Assembly (NCBI RefSeq): GCF_006716425.1
Contig: NZ_VFOZ01000002.1
Location: 310,001-374,000 of the forward strand
Direction: 5' to 3'
Origin: Actinoallomurus bryophytorum
Lineage (GTDB): Bacteria; Actinomycetota; Actinomycetes; Streptosporangiales; Streptosporangiaceae
DNA length: 64,000 bases
The translations under genes and the position numbers were made by a program. Under the pieces are notes generated by a model. The model had not been told where the DNA came from. It worked only from the letters and a program-made list of their open reading frames with translations, and ran no database searches. Positions 56,308-64,000 of this stretch are shown piece after piece (the stretch's first letter is position 1; every line of letters begins with the position of its first letter).

Positions 56308-56706
56308 TCAGCGGCTCGCAGCCTGGAATTTGGTCTGCGGAACCTTCCCACCCGGGTTCTTCGCCCTGCTGGGGTCCTTTGACTCGTACGCCTGGACGAT
56401 TTCCGCGGGAATACGGCCACGGTCGTTGATCGTGATCCCGTGCTGTTTCGCCCAGCCCCGGATGTCCGCGGCGCGTTCGCGGTTGTGCGCGGTACGGCCA
56501 CCGCGTGCGGCGCCACGACCGGCGCGGCGTGCACCGGCCTTACGCGCCTTCTCAACATACGGAGCGAACACCTTGCGAAGCTTGTCCGCGTTTTTCGTTC
56601 TGAGATCGATTTCGTACGTGATCCCGTCAATCGAGAAACTCACCGTCTCGTCGGCCGGCTTGCCGTCGATGTCATCGAGTAGCCGAACGATCGTTTCTTG
56701 TGCCAT
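56308..56706 (-). CDS. lsr2: Lsr2-family nucleoid-associated protein (second of tandem pair)
   Basis: 132 residues. N-terminal oligomerisation domain with TVSFSIDGITYEIDL, then a basic linker (GARRAGRGAARGG), then the C-terminal DNA-binding domain IRGWAKQHGITINDRGRIPAEIVQAYE with the canonical RGR minor-groove core. Lsr2 silences AT-rich, often foreign, DNA. CAGGAG precedes the ATG. It is 32 bases downstream of a paralogue and is less GC-rich than surrounding genes. Confidence 0.93.
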   Translation of the reverse strand: MAQETIVRLLDDIDGKPADETVSFSIDGITYEIDLRTKNADKLRKVFAPYVEKARKAGARRAGRGAARGGRTAHNRERAADIRGWAKQHGITINDRGRIPAEIVQAYESKDPSRAKNPGGKVPQTKFQAASR

Positions 56707-56738
56707 GTCATTATCTCCTGCAGTGTCCAAGGAGCCAG

Positions 56739-57104
56739 TCAGTCATCAGGGTTCGCGTCCGGATGAGCGGCGATGAACTTCTCATAGACCTCATCACCGA
56801 TCTTCCCACGGGAGCTGACCTCGATGCCTTCTTGCCTGGCCCATTCGCGCACGTCGCTGTTAGAGTATCCGCGCAGGCGAGGCGCGGTGTCGGATGTCGC
56901 CTTACGTGCCCGGCCCGCCTGCTTCACCCGTTTGGCCTTCTCGAGGTACGGAGTGAGCACCTCAATCGCCTCTTGCAGTTTCTTGAAGTTCTCATCACCG
57001 AGATCGATGGTGTATGTGGCATCGCCGATCTCGAAATCGCGCTTCTCGACGTCCACTCCATCATGACCGTCGAAATCATCCACCATGATGACCTTGGTTG
57101 CCAC
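56739..57104 (-). CDS. Lsr2-family nucleoid-associated protein with RGK core (first of tandem pair)
   Basis: 121 residues, same architecture as the neighbour: MVATKVIMVDDFDG start, ATYTIDLGDENFKKL oligomerisation part, KATSDTAPRLRGYSNSDVREWARQEGIEVSSRGKIGDEVYEKF. The minor-groove core reads RGK, not the usual RGR, which may change affinity. GTG at 57104 has AAAGGAA seven bases upstream. Sequence identity to the second copy is modest, so this is an old duplication or separate acquisition. Confidence 0.9.
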   Translation of the reverse strand: MATKVIMVDDFDGHDGVDVEKRDFEIGDATYTIDLGDENFKKLQEAIEVLTPYLEKAKRVKQAGRARKATSDTAPRLRGYSNSDVREWARQEGIEVSSRGKIGDEVYEKFIAAHPDANPDD

Positions 57105-58760: not shown

Positions 58761-59171
58761 TCACGTGGCGGGCGGCCCGGGGAGCCAGGATCTGGGGGCG
58801 GCCTCGTGCACCGGCTCGCGGAGTGTCTCGTACGCCGCGTCGAGGCTGGTCGTGTTGGGTATGCGCCGGGCCAGGCCGGTGACCGCGGCGATCCGGCAGA
58901 CCGTGCCACTGGCCGGCAGGACGAGACAGACCCGTACGCCCAGGGAGCGGGCCCGCCGCCCGGCACTGACGATGGCGCCCACGCCCGTGCAGTCGCAGAA
59001 CCGTGTCGCCGTCAGGTCGATGACCAACGGGTCGGCGCCGCGGTCGAGCAGATGTATCAACTGGTCGCGTATGACGTACGCGTTGCACACGTCGACTTCG
59101 GGGGGAAAAGCACTAACCGTTATTCCGGCCCTGTCAGTGACGGAGAGTGGGAACCGGATGATCGAGGGCAT
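58761..59171 (-). CDS. STAS-domain anti-sigma-factor antagonist
   Basis: 136 residues with the SpoIIAA-like STAS fold: ITVSAFPPEVDVCNAYVIRDQL, LVIDLTATRFCDCTGVGAIVSAGRRAR. The phospho-acceptor site normally DSSG reads DCTG, so Thr replaces the usual Ser. It should bind and release an anti-sigma (RsbW-like) kinase, which is not encoded nearby. ATG at 59171 is chosen as the first residue fitting the family; an upstream in-frame ATG at 59273 is possible. Confidence 0.85.
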   Translation of the reverse strand: MPSIIRFPLSVTDRAGITVSAFPPEVDVCNAYVIRDQLIHLLDRGADPLVIDLTATRFCDCTGVGAIVSAGRRARSLGVRVCLVLPASGTVCRIAAVTGLARRIPNTTSLDAAYETLREPVHEAAPRSWLPGPPAT

Positions 59172-59445: not shown

Positions 59446-60555
59446 TCAGGCCGGTTCGAGGTCGGCCAGGCCGGTACGGGGGCTCGTGACGTCCTCCCCC
59501 GCCGCCGCCACCGCCTCGCGCAGGCTCACCCCGGACCGCACCCGTGCTCCGGGTAGCACGACCGAGCGCTCCACCTCCGCGCCGGGCTCCACGACGCAGC
59601 CGGGGAACAGCAGGCTGGACCGTACCGTCGCGCCGTCCGGCACGTCGACGTCGCCGCCGACCAGGCTGCCGAGCCGGGGGACGTACGTCGGCGGCGCACC
59701 GGTCAGCGTGCGGGGCAGGTGCCCGGCCGGCATCGGGCCCGGCCGGTCGAGCAGCTTCATCTGCTCCAGGTGGTAGCGCTCCACCGTGCCGATGTCGGCC
59801 CAGTAGCCGGAGATCGGGTACGCCAGCACGTGCCGCCCCTCCGCGATCATCCGGGGCAGCACGTCGCGGCTGATGTCGTGCCGCCAGCCGTCCTCCCCCA
59901 GCGCGGCGAGCTCGGTGAGCACCTCTTCCAGCACCTCGGTGCGGAACAGGCAGAACGCGGTGAACACCAGGTCCGACGTCGGGTCGGCCGGCTTCTCGAC
60001 CAGCCGGCGCACCTTCAGGTCCGCGTCCACCTCCACCATGCCGAACAGGTGCACGAACCGCCGCTCGATGCGCTGCACGCCGATCGTCACGTCGGCGCCG
60101 GCCCGGCGGTGCGCCTCCACCATCGGCCCGTAGTCGAAGGTGTAGACGTGGTCGGCGTGCTGCACCAGCACGTCGCGCGCGCCCGGCGCGAACAGGTACT
60201 CGGCGTTGTTGAGCAACGCGTCGGCGGTGCCCGACTCGGGCGGCCGGGGCGGGAGAGGCGCACCCGGCGGGGCGCCGGCCGAGCGCACGAGGCCGTCGTG
60301 GGGGCCGAAGTTCACCCGGATGCCCGCGCCGTCCCAGTGCGCTGTGAGGTAGTCCACCAGGTCCCGCTCGCGGTGCATCGACAGCAGCACCACCTCCGGG
60401 ATCCCGGAACGGACCGCGTTGGCCATGCTGAAGTCCAGGAGCCGGCAGGACGCCGCGTACGGCACGAGCGGCTTGCACGTGTCGTCGGTCAGCCGGCCCA
60501 TCCGCTCGCCGAGGCCACCGGCGAGCAGTGCCGCGCGTACGTCCGCTGAGGTCAT
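59446..60555 (-). CDS. GlgC-like nucleotidyltransferase, possible NDP-cyclitol/sugar synthase
   Basis: 369 residues related to glucose-1-phosphate adenylyltransferase: AALLAGGLGERMGRLTDDTCKPLVPYA (nucleotide and Mg site), LLDFSMANAVRSGI, HADHVYTFDYGPMVEAHRRAGADVTIG, and GYWADIGTVERYHLEQMKLL; a left-handed beta-helix end follows (SLLFPGCVVEPGAEVERSVVLPGARV). GlgC homologues activate C7-cyclitol phosphates in acarbose and validamycin pathways (AcbR, ValB), and the cyclase upstream in this operon supports that reading over glycogen synthesis. ATG at 60555 lies 19 bases after the kinase/isomerase stop. Confidence 0.85.
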   Translation of the reverse strand: MTSADVRAALLAGGLGERMGRLTDDTCKPLVPYAASCRLLDFSMANAVRSGIPEVVLLSMHRERDLVDYLTAHWDGAGIRVNFGPHDGLVRSAGAPPGAPLPPRPPESGTADALLNNAEYLFAPGARDVLVQHADHVYTFDYGPMVEAHRRAGADVTIGVQRIERRFVHLFGMVEVDADLKVRRLVEKPADPTSDLVFTAFCLFRTEVLEEVLTELAALGEDGWRHDISRDVLPRMIAEGRHVLAYPISGYWADIGTVERYHLEQMKLLDRPGPMPAGHLPRTLTGAPPTYVPRLGSLVGGDVDVPDGATVRSSLLFPGCVVEPGAEVERSVVLPGARVRSGVSLREAVAAAGEDVTSPRTGLADLEPA

Positions 60556-60574
60556 GTGCTCTCTCCCGACGAGA

Positions 60575-62539
60575 TCACCAGGTACGTCCTTGCGGGTCGC
60601 CCTGCGGCAGAAGCTCGCGCAGGAGCCGTACGGAGGCGGCCACGCTCTGCTCCCGCGGCAGCAGCGCGTCCTCGTGCTCGACGTAGAGCACGCCGTGGAA
60701 GTCCTCGTCGAGCAGTGCCGAGACGATCGCCGGCCACGGAAGCTCGCCGGCGCCCAGGGCACGGAACCGGATCGGCGGCCCGGGACCGTACCGTGACCAG
60801 CCGGCGCCGGACGGTGGTTGCGGGGCGTTCCAGCGCTGCAGGTCCTTGGCGTGCGCCGCGCCCAGGCCGTCGCCCCAGCCGCGTACCGCGTCCACCGGAT
60901 CGTGCCCGGTGGCGGCGAGGTTGGCCGGGTCCACGCACAACCGGACCGAGGCGGACGTGGACGTGCCCGCCACCGCGTCGAGCAGTTGCCGGGCGCTGGC
61001 CCGGTCGTAGACCACCTGCTTGGGGTGCGGCTCGACCAGCAGCGTCACGCCGTGCTCGGCGGCCAGGGACAGCACCGGCCGCGCCTCCTCACACCACGCG
61101 GCGATGTTGTCCGCCCAGCTCACCGAGCTGTGCCACCACGAGAGCCAGCGCGCCACGTCCGGCACGCCGAACATCAGCCGTACGCACGGGGCGCCCAGGT
61201 CGGCGGCCAGCCGCACCGTGTCCAGCGCACAGCGCAGCGCGTGGTCGCGCTTGGCCGCCGCCGGGCCGCCGAGCACCGGATCGGTGTGCGGACCGTGCGG
61301 GCCGAGCAGCAGCTGGGTGTCCCTGCTGTTGCTCACGCAGTCCACCGCGACGTCCCCGGCCGCCGCGCGCAGGTCCGCGCGGTAGTCCGCCTCCCGCGCC
61401 CAGCGCGTCAGGTCCACCAGGCCCGAGGTGGTGTCGGTGGGCAGGTCGACCGCGTCGGCCCCGACCTGTGCGGCGTACTCGAGAGCGGCCGGCAGCCCCG
61501 AGCCGCCCCAGGCCGCCAGGCAGAGCCCGACCGCCACCTGCCGGTCGTCCGCGCGGTGCCGCACGGGGGGCCGTGACCGGACCGGCGGCGGATCCAGGTC
61601 GAGCAGCCACGCGGCACTCGGCGCCCGTACCTCTCCGTCGTGCACGCGGCTCTCGAGCGCCGCGTGCACGGTCGCCACCGGTTCGTCCACCGCGACCACC
61701 TCGGTGACGGACAGTTCGGCGCCTAGCCGCCGTTCGAGCTCGGCGAACAGCGGCGGGCAGCCGCGCAGCACACCGCCCCCGGCGGCGACCGACCAGTCTC
61801 CGGTGAGCCCGGCCCGGTCGCTCGCGGCGCGCACGCCCAGTACGAGCTCGCCGACCGCCGCCGACACCAGCTCCGCCGCCGGGCCGTCGCCATCGAGCCA
61901 GGCATCGCAGACCACCGGCGCCAGCGCGGCCACCGCGGCCTTGGGGAACGCCTCCGCGGCCAGCTCACGCGCCAGCTCCGCCGGGGACCGGCCCGCGGCG
62001 AGAGAGGTCAGGCGTGCGCCGATCGCGGTCGCCGGTCCCCGGCCGTCCCCGGCACGGACCGCGGCGCGCAACCCGGCCAGCCCCAGGTCGAAGGCGCTGC
62101 CCTCGTCGCTGCCGAGGTATTCACAACCCCCCACCCGGCACACCTCGCCCCCGTCGCCGGCCGCGACGAACCCCGAACCGGTGCCGCAGACGACCACCAC
62201 GCCGCGGCCCGCGAGCGGCGGGGCGGCCAGCCACGGCACGGAGTCGTTGGAGACGAGCAGCCGTCCGCGTACGCCCGCGGCGAGCGCCAGGTCGCGTAAG
62301 CGGGCCGCCTCTCCGTCGTCGCCGGTGAGGTCGACGGCGGCGGTGGCGACCCATCCCGCGCCCGGCCGTCCGCCTAGCGCGGCGGCGACGTCGCCGAAGA
62401 CGGCGCGCAGGGTGCGCGTCGCCGGGCCGGTGCCGACCGAGGCGGGGTTGACCGAGCCGTAGGTCTTGCGGGCGGTGGAGCCGGCCGCGATCACGGTCGT
62501 CGTGCTGCCGCCCGCGTCCACCGCCCACAGTGGGATCAT
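60575..62539 (-). CDS. Fusion of BadF/BcrA-type sugar kinase and xylose-isomerase-like TIM barrel
   Basis: 654 residues. Residues 1-~310: BadF/BadG/N-acetylglucosamine-kinase ATPase with phosphate motifs VDAGGSTTTVI and VCGTGSGFVA. Residues ~335-654: AP-endonuclease-2/xylose-isomerase TIM barrel with metal ligands in LVEPHP, CVDPANL, AHAKDLQ and YVEHED. TIM barrels of this type include inosose dehydratase and isomerase (IolE, IolI), so a cyclitol ketone is a plausible substrate, with the kinase adding the phosphate. The two activities are normally separate genes. ATG at 62539 overlaps the cyclase stop (ATGA). Confidence 0.85.
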   Translation of the reverse strand: MIPLWAVDAGGSTTTVIAAGSTARKTYGSVNPASVGTGPATRTLRAVFGDVAAALGGRPGAGWVATAAVDLTGDDGEAARLRDLALAAGVRGRLLVSNDSVPWLAAPPLAGRGVVVVCGTGSGFVAAGDGGEVCRVGGCEYLGSDEGSAFDLGLAGLRAAVRAGDGRGPATAIGARLTSLAAGRSPAELARELAAEAFPKAAVAALAPVVCDAWLDGDGPAAELVSAAVGELVLGVRAASDRAGLTGDWSVAAGGGVLRGCPPLFAELERRLGAELSVTEVVAVDEPVATVHAALESRVHDGEVRAPSAAWLLDLDPPPVRSRPPVRHRADDRQVAVGLCLAAWGGSGLPAALEYAAQVGADAVDLPTDTTSGLVDLTRWAREADYRADLRAAAGDVAVDCVSNSRDTQLLLGPHGPHTDPVLGGPAAAKRDHALRCALDTVRLAADLGAPCVRLMFGVPDVARWLSWWHSSVSWADNIAAWCEEARPVLSLAAEHGVTLLVEPHPKQVVYDRASARQLLDAVAGTSTSASVRLCVDPANLAATGHDPVDAVRGWGDGLGAAHAKDLQRWNAPQPPSGAGWSRYGPGPPIRFRALGAGELPWPAIVSALLDEDFHGVLYVEHEDALLPREQSVAASVRLLRELLPQGDPQGRTW

Positions 62540-63708
62540 CGGCCGCCCACCGGGACGTCATCGGCGACGTTGCGCAGGAGCGCGGCCCGCACCTCGTCCT
62601 CGGTGACGTCATCGGCGATCAGTGTCGTGCCGAGCTCGACCGGGAGCACGAAGCGGAGACTGCCGTCCCGTATCTCCCGGATCTTGGACATCGCGGCCAG
62701 CACGTCATCCACCGCGGGTACGGAACGTAGCCGATCCAGGCGTACCGGCAGGCCCAGGTCGGTGATCAACCGGACGATCCGCCGCGCCAGGCCGGGATCG
62801 AGCAGGCCGCGTGCGCGAGAGATGTCCACCGCGATGGCCATGCCGACGGCGACGGCCTCGCCGTGCAGCACGGGGCCGTACCCGGTGGTCGTCTCGACGG
62901 CGTGGCCGACGGTGTGGCCGAAGTTCAGCGGACGGCGCAGGTCCACCTCATAGGGGTCGCGGCCGACGAGTTCGGTCTTGATCGCACTGGCCGCGCGCAC
63001 GAGCGGCCCGACCGCCGACGAATGGCAGTGGACGAGTTCGTCGGTGTGCTGCTCGATATATTCGAAGAGTTCAGGAGAGGCTATTATCGCTTTTTTCAAT
63101 GCCTCGGCGAGACCGGCACGCGCCTGCCGAACGTCGAGGGTCTGAAGGAACTCCAGGCACGAAATTACGGCCCGTGGCTGGTAGAACGCGCCGACGAGGT
63201 TCTTGGCGGCATTGTGGTCGACCGCCACTTTTCCGCCGATGCCGGCGTCGACCTGCGCGAGCAGGGTCGTGGGGACGTTGACGTAGGGCACGCCGCGCAT
63301 GAAGGCGCTGGCGACCCAGCCGACCGTATCCATGATCATTCCGCCGCCGAGCGCCACGATCACGTCGCGGCGCGCCAGGCCGAGCTGGGCCAGCCAGTCG
63401 ATGAGCCGGTAGGCGGTGTCCATGCTCTTGCTCTGTTCACCTGCGTCGACGACCATGCTGCCCAGCAGCAGCCCGCGTTCGCGGAGCGTCTCGGTGATCC
63501 CGTACGCCGGCAGTCCGGCGACGGTCCGCTCGGTGATCACGGCGGCGCACCGCCCGTCCAGCTCGGCGAGCAGCACCTCGGTCGCCGCCGACATATCCGG
63601 CACCACGTGGATGCGATAGGTGTCCTGTCGTTCGAGGCTGACCTCGATGGCCGACGAGGTCACTGACAACGGGATCCGATCGCGAACGACATAGCTTTCC
63701 TCGGCCAT
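62536..63708 (-). CDS. Sugar phosphate cyclase, 3-dehydroquinate-synthase-like
   Basis: 390 residues. NAD-binding GGGMIMDTVGW (121-131), RGVPYVNVPTTLLAQVDAGIGGK (Asp154, Lys160), KNLVGAFYQP (Asn170), GLAEALKK (Glu202), LNFGHTVGHAVE (His265, His269) and LHGEAVAVGM (His282). These are the metal and substrate positions of the DHQS superfamily. It has DAGIG, seen in EEVS-type cyclases, but the DHQS-like GHTVGHA; the DKK motif of DHQS near the C-terminus is changed to IRE. A ~30-residue N-terminal extension is also unlike AroB. The substrate is therefore uncertain: sedoheptulose-7-phosphate, DAHP-like or glucose-6-phosphate. ATG at 63708 has GGGAG upstream. Confidence 0.85.
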   Translation of the reverse strand: MAEESYVVRDRIPLSVTSSAIEVSLERQDTYRIHVVPDMSAATEVLLAELDGRCAAVITERTVAGLPAYGITETLRERGLLLGSMVVDAGEQSKSMDTAYRLIDWLAQLGLARRDVIVALGGGMIMDTVGWVASAFMRGVPYVNVPTTLLAQVDAGIGGKVAVDHNAAKNLVGAFYQPRAVISCLEFLQTLDVRQARAGLAEALKKAIIASPELFEYIEQHTDELVHCHSSAVGPLVRAASAIKTELVGRDPYEVDLRRPLNFGHTVGHAVETTTGYGPVLHGEAVAVGMAIAVDISRARGLLDPGLARRIVRLITDLGLPVRLDRLRSVPAVDDVLAAMSKIREIRDGSLRFVLPVELGTTLIADDVTEDEVRAALLRNVADDVPVGGR

Positions 63709-63767
63709 CCGTCTCCCTTACCAAGATCAACTGATCGGGTCAGGCCGCCACCCATACGGATGCGAGA

Positions 63768-63795
63768 CTTATCTTCTCTGATAAATGTTTATCAA
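63768..63795 (-). promoter_or_regulatory. Candidate promoter of the cyclitol-like operon with overlapping palindrome
   Basis: On the minus strand TTGATA (63795-63790) and GATAAG (63773-63768) are 16 bases apart, ~60 bases upstream of the cyclase ATG. The perfect AT-rich palindrome TGATAAA-TG-TTTATCA (63779-63794) covers the -35 and spacer, and TTATC/GATAA recurs at 63769-63784. A repressor bound here would block the promoter. The 252-base region 63709-63960 is otherwise AT-rich and without a gene. Confidence 0.5.
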
Positions 63796-63960
63796 ACACA
63801 ATATTTGGCCAGAGATCGTGATGATGCATGCCACGGAAGGCGCGGATCGCGGCGCCGAACGGATGATCTCAGCGACTCCCGGAACATTCACCCTGCCAGG
63901 TCAATACAGATGTCGATCTAGGAATGACGGCCGTACGCCGGCCCGTCCCGAGGGCGGGAC

Positions 63961-64000
63961 ATGCTGACGATGGTGGTCGGCAGCGGCTACCTCGGCGGCC
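63961..64000 (+). CDS. 5' end of a Rossmann-fold protein (cut by window end)
   Basis: ATG at 63961, preceded by GAGGGCGGGAC, opens a frame MLTMVVGSGYLGG that continues past the last base. VVGSGYLGG is a GxGxxG dinucleotide-binding start, as in NAD-dependent epimerases, reductases or dehydrogenases. It is divergent from the cyclase operon and may share its regulation. The second ATG at 63970 could also be the start. Confidence 0.6.
   Translation, partial: MLTMVVGSGYLGG

Follow-up and report, generated by a model that had tools for sequence, protein, structure and literature searches.

The window analysed here is a stretch of 64,000 nucleotides from the 9.47 Mb genome of Actinoallomurus bryophytorum (C2:310001-374000, where C2 is the contig). 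Its right edge carries an operon at positions 59446-63708 that consists of three minus-strand genes, coding for a sugar phosphate cyclase, a fusion of a kinase with a TIM barrel, and a nucleotidyltransferase. The cyclase and fusion genes overlap by 4 bases, and the nucleotidyltransferase gene lies 19 bases past the fusion gene. A second operon diverges from it and continues beyond the window. The original prediction, made from the sequence of the window, had described this layout with a divergent Rossmann-fold gene. Coordinates and Pfam searches confirmed it, and the divergent gene is of the RmlD type. In the following list, EVS stands for 2-epi-valiolone synthase.

62536..63708, minus strand: sugar phosphate cyclase of the EVS type, proposed 2-epi-valiolone synthase (390 residues; Pfam DHQ_synthase/DHQS_C, and clade)
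60575..62539, minus strand: kinase-TIM fusion gene, BadF/NagK-type kinase plus xylose-isomerase-like TIM barrel (654 residues; Pfam)
61640..62533, minus strand: kinase half of the fusion, aligned stretch (alignment A2, 20 sequences)
60578..61534, minus strand: TIM-barrel half of the fusion, aligned stretch, proposed 2-epimerase or dehydratase (alignment A1, 21 sequences)
59446..60555, minus strand: GlgC-like nucleotidyltransferase, ValB orthologue (369 residues from ATG; Pfam NTP_transferase)
63709..63960, no strand: divergent intergenic region between the two operons (from gene positions; partly conserved in 5 relatives)
63961..64000, plus strand: RmlD-family gene (ValK orthologue), first 40 bases, continuing past the window to C2:374881
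Right of the window, up to C2:381833: genes for VldE-like, ValM-like, ValN-like and ValO-like proteins

The genes to the right were read over 40 kb, beginning slightly inside the window edge and running rightward. The divergent plus-strand operon, which starts at window position 63961, codes first for the RmlD-family protein (306 residues) and a protein of glycosyltransferase family 20 (GT20; 474 residues). These are followed by a class III aminotransferase (419 residues) and an alcohol dehydrogenase (ADH)-like protein (333 residues). After the ADH gene, two minus-strand genes code for an EmrB-type transporter of the major facilitator superfamily (MFS) and a haloacid dehalogenase (HAD) phosphatase (233 residues), and the cluster ends at C2:381833. 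More biosynthetic genes had been expected on this side, and the next 8 kb do hold orthologues of ValK, ValL/VldE, ValM, ValN and ValO, with a pseudoglycosyltransferase and an aminotransferase among them; an MFS transporter gene is also present. The core genes are open and, where compared, at least 73% identical to those of the nearest relatives, which are found in Actinoallomurus genomes and in Actinomadura sp. DC4. A chance arrangement is excluded because orthologues keep the same layout in other genera. The EmrB-type MFS gene occupies C2:379382-380911, between the ADH and HAD genes. Its C-terminal tail appears out of frame by eye, and no such gene was found at that place in three related loci (L007, L008 and L010).

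The GT20 protein matched the solved VldE/ValL structures at 1.7e-213, versus 6.4e-45 for the best trehalose-phosphate synthase. PMC3441724 names 21 VldE positions that touch ligands or move with them. Of these positions, 20 are identical in the GT20 protein, and the sole differing one, 362, contacts the ligand via the backbone. An ordinary trehalose-phosphate synthase is ruled out by the VldE match together with the 20 of 21 ligand-site residues. The gene product is thus predicted to be a pseudoglycosyltransferase of the VldE/ValL type, closest to VldE and with the ligand-site residues kept. Three further GT20-like places were detected in the same genome, at 30-35% identity.

Scanning the genomes with the GT20 protein gave 25 loci. 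One of them, L025 of Streptomyces hygroscopicus subsp. hygroscopicus NBRC 13472, has a cyclase scoring 739 bits against the solved ValA and a GT20 protein scoring 1046 bits against VldE, and by these matches is a validamycin-type cluster. The other val names in L025 were given by gene order and literature (ROK kinase ValC, VOC protein ValD, ValG and ValO). The window cluster shares with L025 orthologues of ValB (48% identity), ValK (58%), ValL (68.5%), ValM (70%) and ValN (53%), a ValO-like phosphatase (67%) and the VldE ligand-site residues. In contrast, L025 has a ValA cyclase of the 2-epi-5-epi-valiolone synthase (EEVS) type, a VOC-type protein, a ROK kinase and the glucosyltransferase ValG. 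The window cluster differs in its EVS-type cyclase, its TIM barrel and its BadF-type kinase. Among the proteins called in the window and in L003 and L004, none matched the VOC protein, the ROK kinase or the ValG of L025 at 1e-5. A search of the whole genome with ValG gave only 5 short matches, the best at 5.4e-8 over residues 9-118 of 421. As no ValG glucosyltransferase was found, the cluster is not expected to go on to validamycin itself.

PMC9200736 and PMC7081202 describe a comparable course for acarbose, with a cyclase, a cyclitol 7-kinase, a 2-epimerase, dehydration to valienone 7-phosphate, nucleotide-activated valienol and a pseudoglycosyltransferase. According to the same papers, acarbose differs in starting from the EEVS AcbC, in its ROK-like kinase AcbM, and in that AcbS joins valienol to an amino-sugar trisaccharide. 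A cyclitol natural-product operon that cyclises a sugar phosphate, isomerises and phosphorylates the product, and makes a nucleoside-diphosphate cyclitol for transfer had been predicted. The gene content and the validamycin orthologues support this.

We then consider the cyclase. Two cyclases were found in the genome with this search, the window copy and a 37% identical one at C1:43354. The latter scores 336 on the NCBI aroB model (cut-off 305), and its gene is flanked by aroQ and a shikimate kinase gene, the latter followed by aroC, in an aroC-aroK-aroB-aroQ cluster. For the cyclase tree, cores of less than 230 residues and exact duplicates were excluded; of 78 cyclase rows, 16 were removed beforehand, all of them AroBs from the G008 genus group. 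In the resulting tree of 62 rows, which is midpoint-rooted and has long branches flagged by the program, the window protein falls into a clade of 24 rows that includes its orthologue from Actinosynnema mirum (support 100/100). Outside this EVS-type clade lie all 24 AroB rows and all 10 EEVS-like ones, together with 3 other rows that resemble AroB and 1 outlier. Thus the phylogeny that had been called for places the cyclase apart from both AroB and the EEVS-like proteins.

Four positions, K250, R264, N268 and H275 in the numbering of 3-dehydroquinate synthase (DHQS), mark the EEVS-like rows. There the EEVS-like rows have M (10/10), R in only 2/10, D or A (10/10) and P (8/10); the EVS-type clade has K (24/24), R (23/24), N (24/24) and H (24/24). 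The DKK of AroB is replaced in all 24 rows of the clade, by IRQ (10), IRK (9), IRE (4) or IRL (1), and is present in 27 of the 28 remaining rows. An EEVS identity of the window cyclase, which is 35% identical to ValA of L025, is ruled out by the residues around GHTVGHA and by the tree, which bears out the earlier remark that it does not match EEVS at this motif. A housekeeping AroB is likewise rejected, by the second AroB in the aro cluster and by the separate clade. The original prediction could have failed on a cyclase inside AroB or on unrelated neighbours; instead the cyclase lies outside AroB with a second AroB in the genome, and the flanking genes are pseudosugar genes. According to PMC5133447, EVS makes 2-epi-valiolone, and the EVS clade would pass for DHQS. 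The window cyclase is placed, on its sequence, as DHQS-like but in a clade apart from AroB and EEVS, and is proposed to be a 2-epi-valiolone synthase.

The distribution of this cyclase is patchy. At an E value of 1e-80 or better it was found in 7 of 345 genomes of the order (6 of 8 from the genus of the window and one other) and in 2 of 394 genomes of the class sample; the own genome is counted in both samples. In the genus group of A. pretiosum (L015), 4 of 25 genomes have it, at 66-69% identity. The A. mirum genome (G026) carries its copy at 2.216 Mb, one of four A. mirum cyclases, within the same cluster and beside the same fusion gene (L098). The genes of that cluster are orthologous to those of the window cluster for the cyclase (66-67%), the kinase-TIM fusion protein and the nucleotidyltransferase, and likewise for the RmlD, VldE, aminotransferase, ADH and HAD proteins. 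The differences are that Actinoallomurus belongs to another genus and family and that the EmrB-type MFS gene adjoins the window cluster. In the A. mirum genome, this cluster contains the sole close relative of ValL (75%; the next match has 31%). PMC7570522 names validoxylamine A as a product of Actinosynnema, with reference to Asamizu's 2013 paper about an alternative pseudosugar pathway in A. mirum DSM 43827.

The fusion protein matched BcrAD_BadFG over residues 7-258 and AP_endonuc_2 over residues 353-643 in Pfam. In the kinase half, the stretches DAGG, GTG and GSDEGS are invariant, and its nearest solved relative is an N-acetylmuramic acid/N-acetylglucosamine kinase (4.6e-19). The TIM half has the PF01261 fold of the IolE/IolI kind and a conserved Glu-Asp-His-Glu set (E168, D202, H228 and E286, all invariant), which presumably forms a metal site. 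A structure model of this half reached a mean predicted local distance difference test (pLDDT) score of 80.9. The nearest folds were 2-hydroxy-3-keto-glucal hydratase, SCO6571, isomerase Art22 and ketose 3-epimerases; a literature search for Art22 together with aristeromycin returned no paper. The model suits a 2-epimerase or a dehydratase. By analogy we favour an epimerase, since such an activity is required at this point of the validamycin and acarbose routes and the search for a VOC epimerase was negative. A single gene codes for both halves in Actinoallomurus, Actinomadura DC4, Umezawaea, Saccharothrix and Actinosynnema. Loci of Streptomyces, Embleya, Actinophytocola and Allokutzneria have two genes side by side, with the order of the halves unchanged. 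The contig ends within the gene in L007 and L009, hence a fusion is not visible there.

Based on these observations, the window very probably contains the left half of a gene cluster whose pathway starts with an EVS-type cyclase and leads to validoxylamine A or a close pseudo-disaccharide. Gene content, orthology, ligand-site residue conservation and phylogeny were computed here, and from these we infer every reaction of the window's own proteins. The cyclase would convert sedoheptulose 7-phosphate to 2-epi-valiolone. The TIM barrel would then epimerise C-2 and the fused kinase phosphorylate C-7, in either order. Dehydration by the ValK-like protein or the TIM barrel would give valienone 7-phosphate, which would be reduced to valienol 7-phosphate. 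After a shift of the phosphate to C-1, the GlgC-like enzyme could form guanosine diphosphate (GDP)-valienol. In a second branch, validamine 7-phosphate would arise by the action of a reductase (ValN-like) and an aminotransferase (ValM-like). The VldE-like enzyme may couple both intermediates via a C-N bond, and the ValO-like phosphatase would complete the product. The products of EVS and EEVS differ only at C-5, and this carbon becomes sp2 in valienone. The C-5 stereochemistry is lost at that point, which lets unlike starting sets lead into the same later steps.

Several points weigh against this assignment. No gene was assigned to the C-1 step, and the kinase, TIM-barrel and ValK-like steps are placed by analogy. 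The window cyclase scores 316.9 on the NCBI aroB equivalog model (cut-off 305), and its residues at DHQS positions 250, 264, 268 and 275 are the DHQS-like K, R, N and H. The A. mirum protein Amir_2000 was reportedly assayed as a 2-epi-valiolone synthase by Asamizu in 2012; it is presumably the clade cyclase of A. mirum, which the position at 2.216 Mb fits only roughly.

The same kind of cluster might make another, hence new, pseudo-disaccharide, which keeps the C-5 hydroxyl (valiolone/valiolamine type) or is further decorated. All three starting enzymes differ from those of validamycin, and the additional MFS gene between ADH and HAD would suit such a product. The VldE-like ligand-site residues, however, are those of the validamycin enzyme, the ValM, ValN and ValK orthologues are retained, and Actinosynnema is reported to make validoxylamine A (PMC7570522), so that we regard this alternative as unlikely. 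The original prediction had considered a new product possible. The kept VldE residues and the product reported for the genus of the orthologous cluster make this improbable; the cluster is a new relative of the known A. mirum EVS type, and its product is most likely known.

The aroB cut-off that is passed and the DHQS-like residues would also fit a second 3-dehydroquinate synthase for aromatic precursors, with incidental cyclitol neighbours. Against this, the genome already has an AroB in its aro cluster, the clade stands apart from 24 of 24 AroB rows with I-R in place of D-K throughout, and the cyclase accompanies pseudosugar genes across genera. Such a role is therefore very improbable. A silent or decayed cluster without product is just as remote, given the open and conserved core genes.

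Trees of ValB, ValK, ValL, ValM and ValN were computed with the Noviherbaspirillum clusters as outgroup. The loci L030 and L100-L105 were excluded, as were matches below 110 bits. L022 and L024, on whose short contigs no cyclase was called, were assigned to the EVS type by nothing but their TIM and kinase genes. ValL, ValK, ValM and ValN of L025 are sister to those of the EVS-type Streptomyces clusters L026 and L029 (support 99-100). A grouping of the EVS-type rows without L025 was rejected for ValL (p 0.0136), ValK (p 0.0052) and ValM (p 0.0142). For ValB the situation is reversed. Here the EVS-type rows stand together without L025 (100/100), and the grouping of L025 with L026 and L029 was rejected (p 1.3e-6). 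The cyclase tree likewise separates the EVS and EEVS types. Because the trees of K, L, M and N disagree with those of ValB and the cyclase, the later steps of the validamycin cluster appear EVS-derived and its starting set does not.

These trees would fit an older actinobacterial validoxylamine pathway in the EVS-type clusters and a later, mosaic validamycin cluster that combines EVS-type K, L, M and N with a different starting set (EEVS, VOC epimerase, ROK kinase and ValB). We see the case for such a history as evenly balanced. The swap is chemically possible, because the one difference between the two cyclase products, at C-5, is erased at valienone. Its direction depends on the root of the tree. 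Three points speak against a mosaic: for ValN, the grouping of the EVS-type rows without L025 was not rejected (p 0.087), the K, M and N trees come from quick searches, and the sample holds a single actinobacterial EEVS-type ValL cluster. No title or abstract with the mosaic claim was found in the accessible part of the literature, in searches that were not aimed at it.

According to PMC7411730, where Ki values are reviewed, validoxylamine A is a nanomolar trehalase inhibitor. The complete EVS-route gene set in Actinoallomurus-type actinomycetes ties a poorly studied cyclase to a concrete predicted product, and the cluster offers alternative enzymes for validamine-type building blocks. The cyclase family map, the kinase-TIM fusion and the sign of a mosaic validamycin cluster are added here. 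If true, an exchange of the starting set with the later steps kept would provide a clear example of how pathways evolve in modules.

Related clusters were also seen elsewhere. L103 (G006:C50:34500-54000) and L109 (G308:C4:30000-49900) have an EVS-like cyclase, 54-60% identical to that of the window, together with genes for a TreT-type trehalose-synthase-like glycosyltransferase (PF21269), a HAD phosphatase and a ValH-like MFS protein. In L103 an RmlD domain is fused to a BadF kinase. The stretches read gave no match to a VldE-like protein or to a class III aminotransferase. The products could be amino-free pseudo-trehaloses; in PMC12041759, amino-free clusters were sought among ValL homologues and none found. 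L101 (Allokutzneria A3M-2-11) and L102 (Streptomyces 8K308) are larger relatives with an EVS-type cyclase and VldE-type genes on one contig. Next to the cyclase gene they also carry genes for a radical SAM protein (tested with Pfam in L101 only), for another class III aminotransferase-like protein, the second one, and for ABC transporters. L110 (G003:C5:1-16000), from the genus of the window, has an EEVS-like domain (40% to ValA) in an open reading frame of 771 residues, followed by one of 750 residues matching the ROK kinase ValC and an ADH, and then a HAD gene. L027 and L028 of Noviherbaspirillum (Betaproteobacteria) carry relatives of ValL (46-49%), ValM and ValB with an EEVS-like cyclase, which by gene content is a putative validamycin-like cluster outside actinomycetes.

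Window positions 63779-63794, within the divergent promoter region, form a perfect palindrome around a 2-base centre. It matched 2 of 107 searched loci, both in the window's own genome, and was dropped as a candidate since it is not palindromic in 5 aligned relatives. Left of the operon, two adjacent minus-strand genes for Lsr2 (H-NS-like) proteins, each with dimerisation and DNA-binding domains, occupy window positions 56308-57104. A STAS-domain gene at 58761-59090 lies directly left of the operon, and a 59% identical gene is located right of the cluster in L008.

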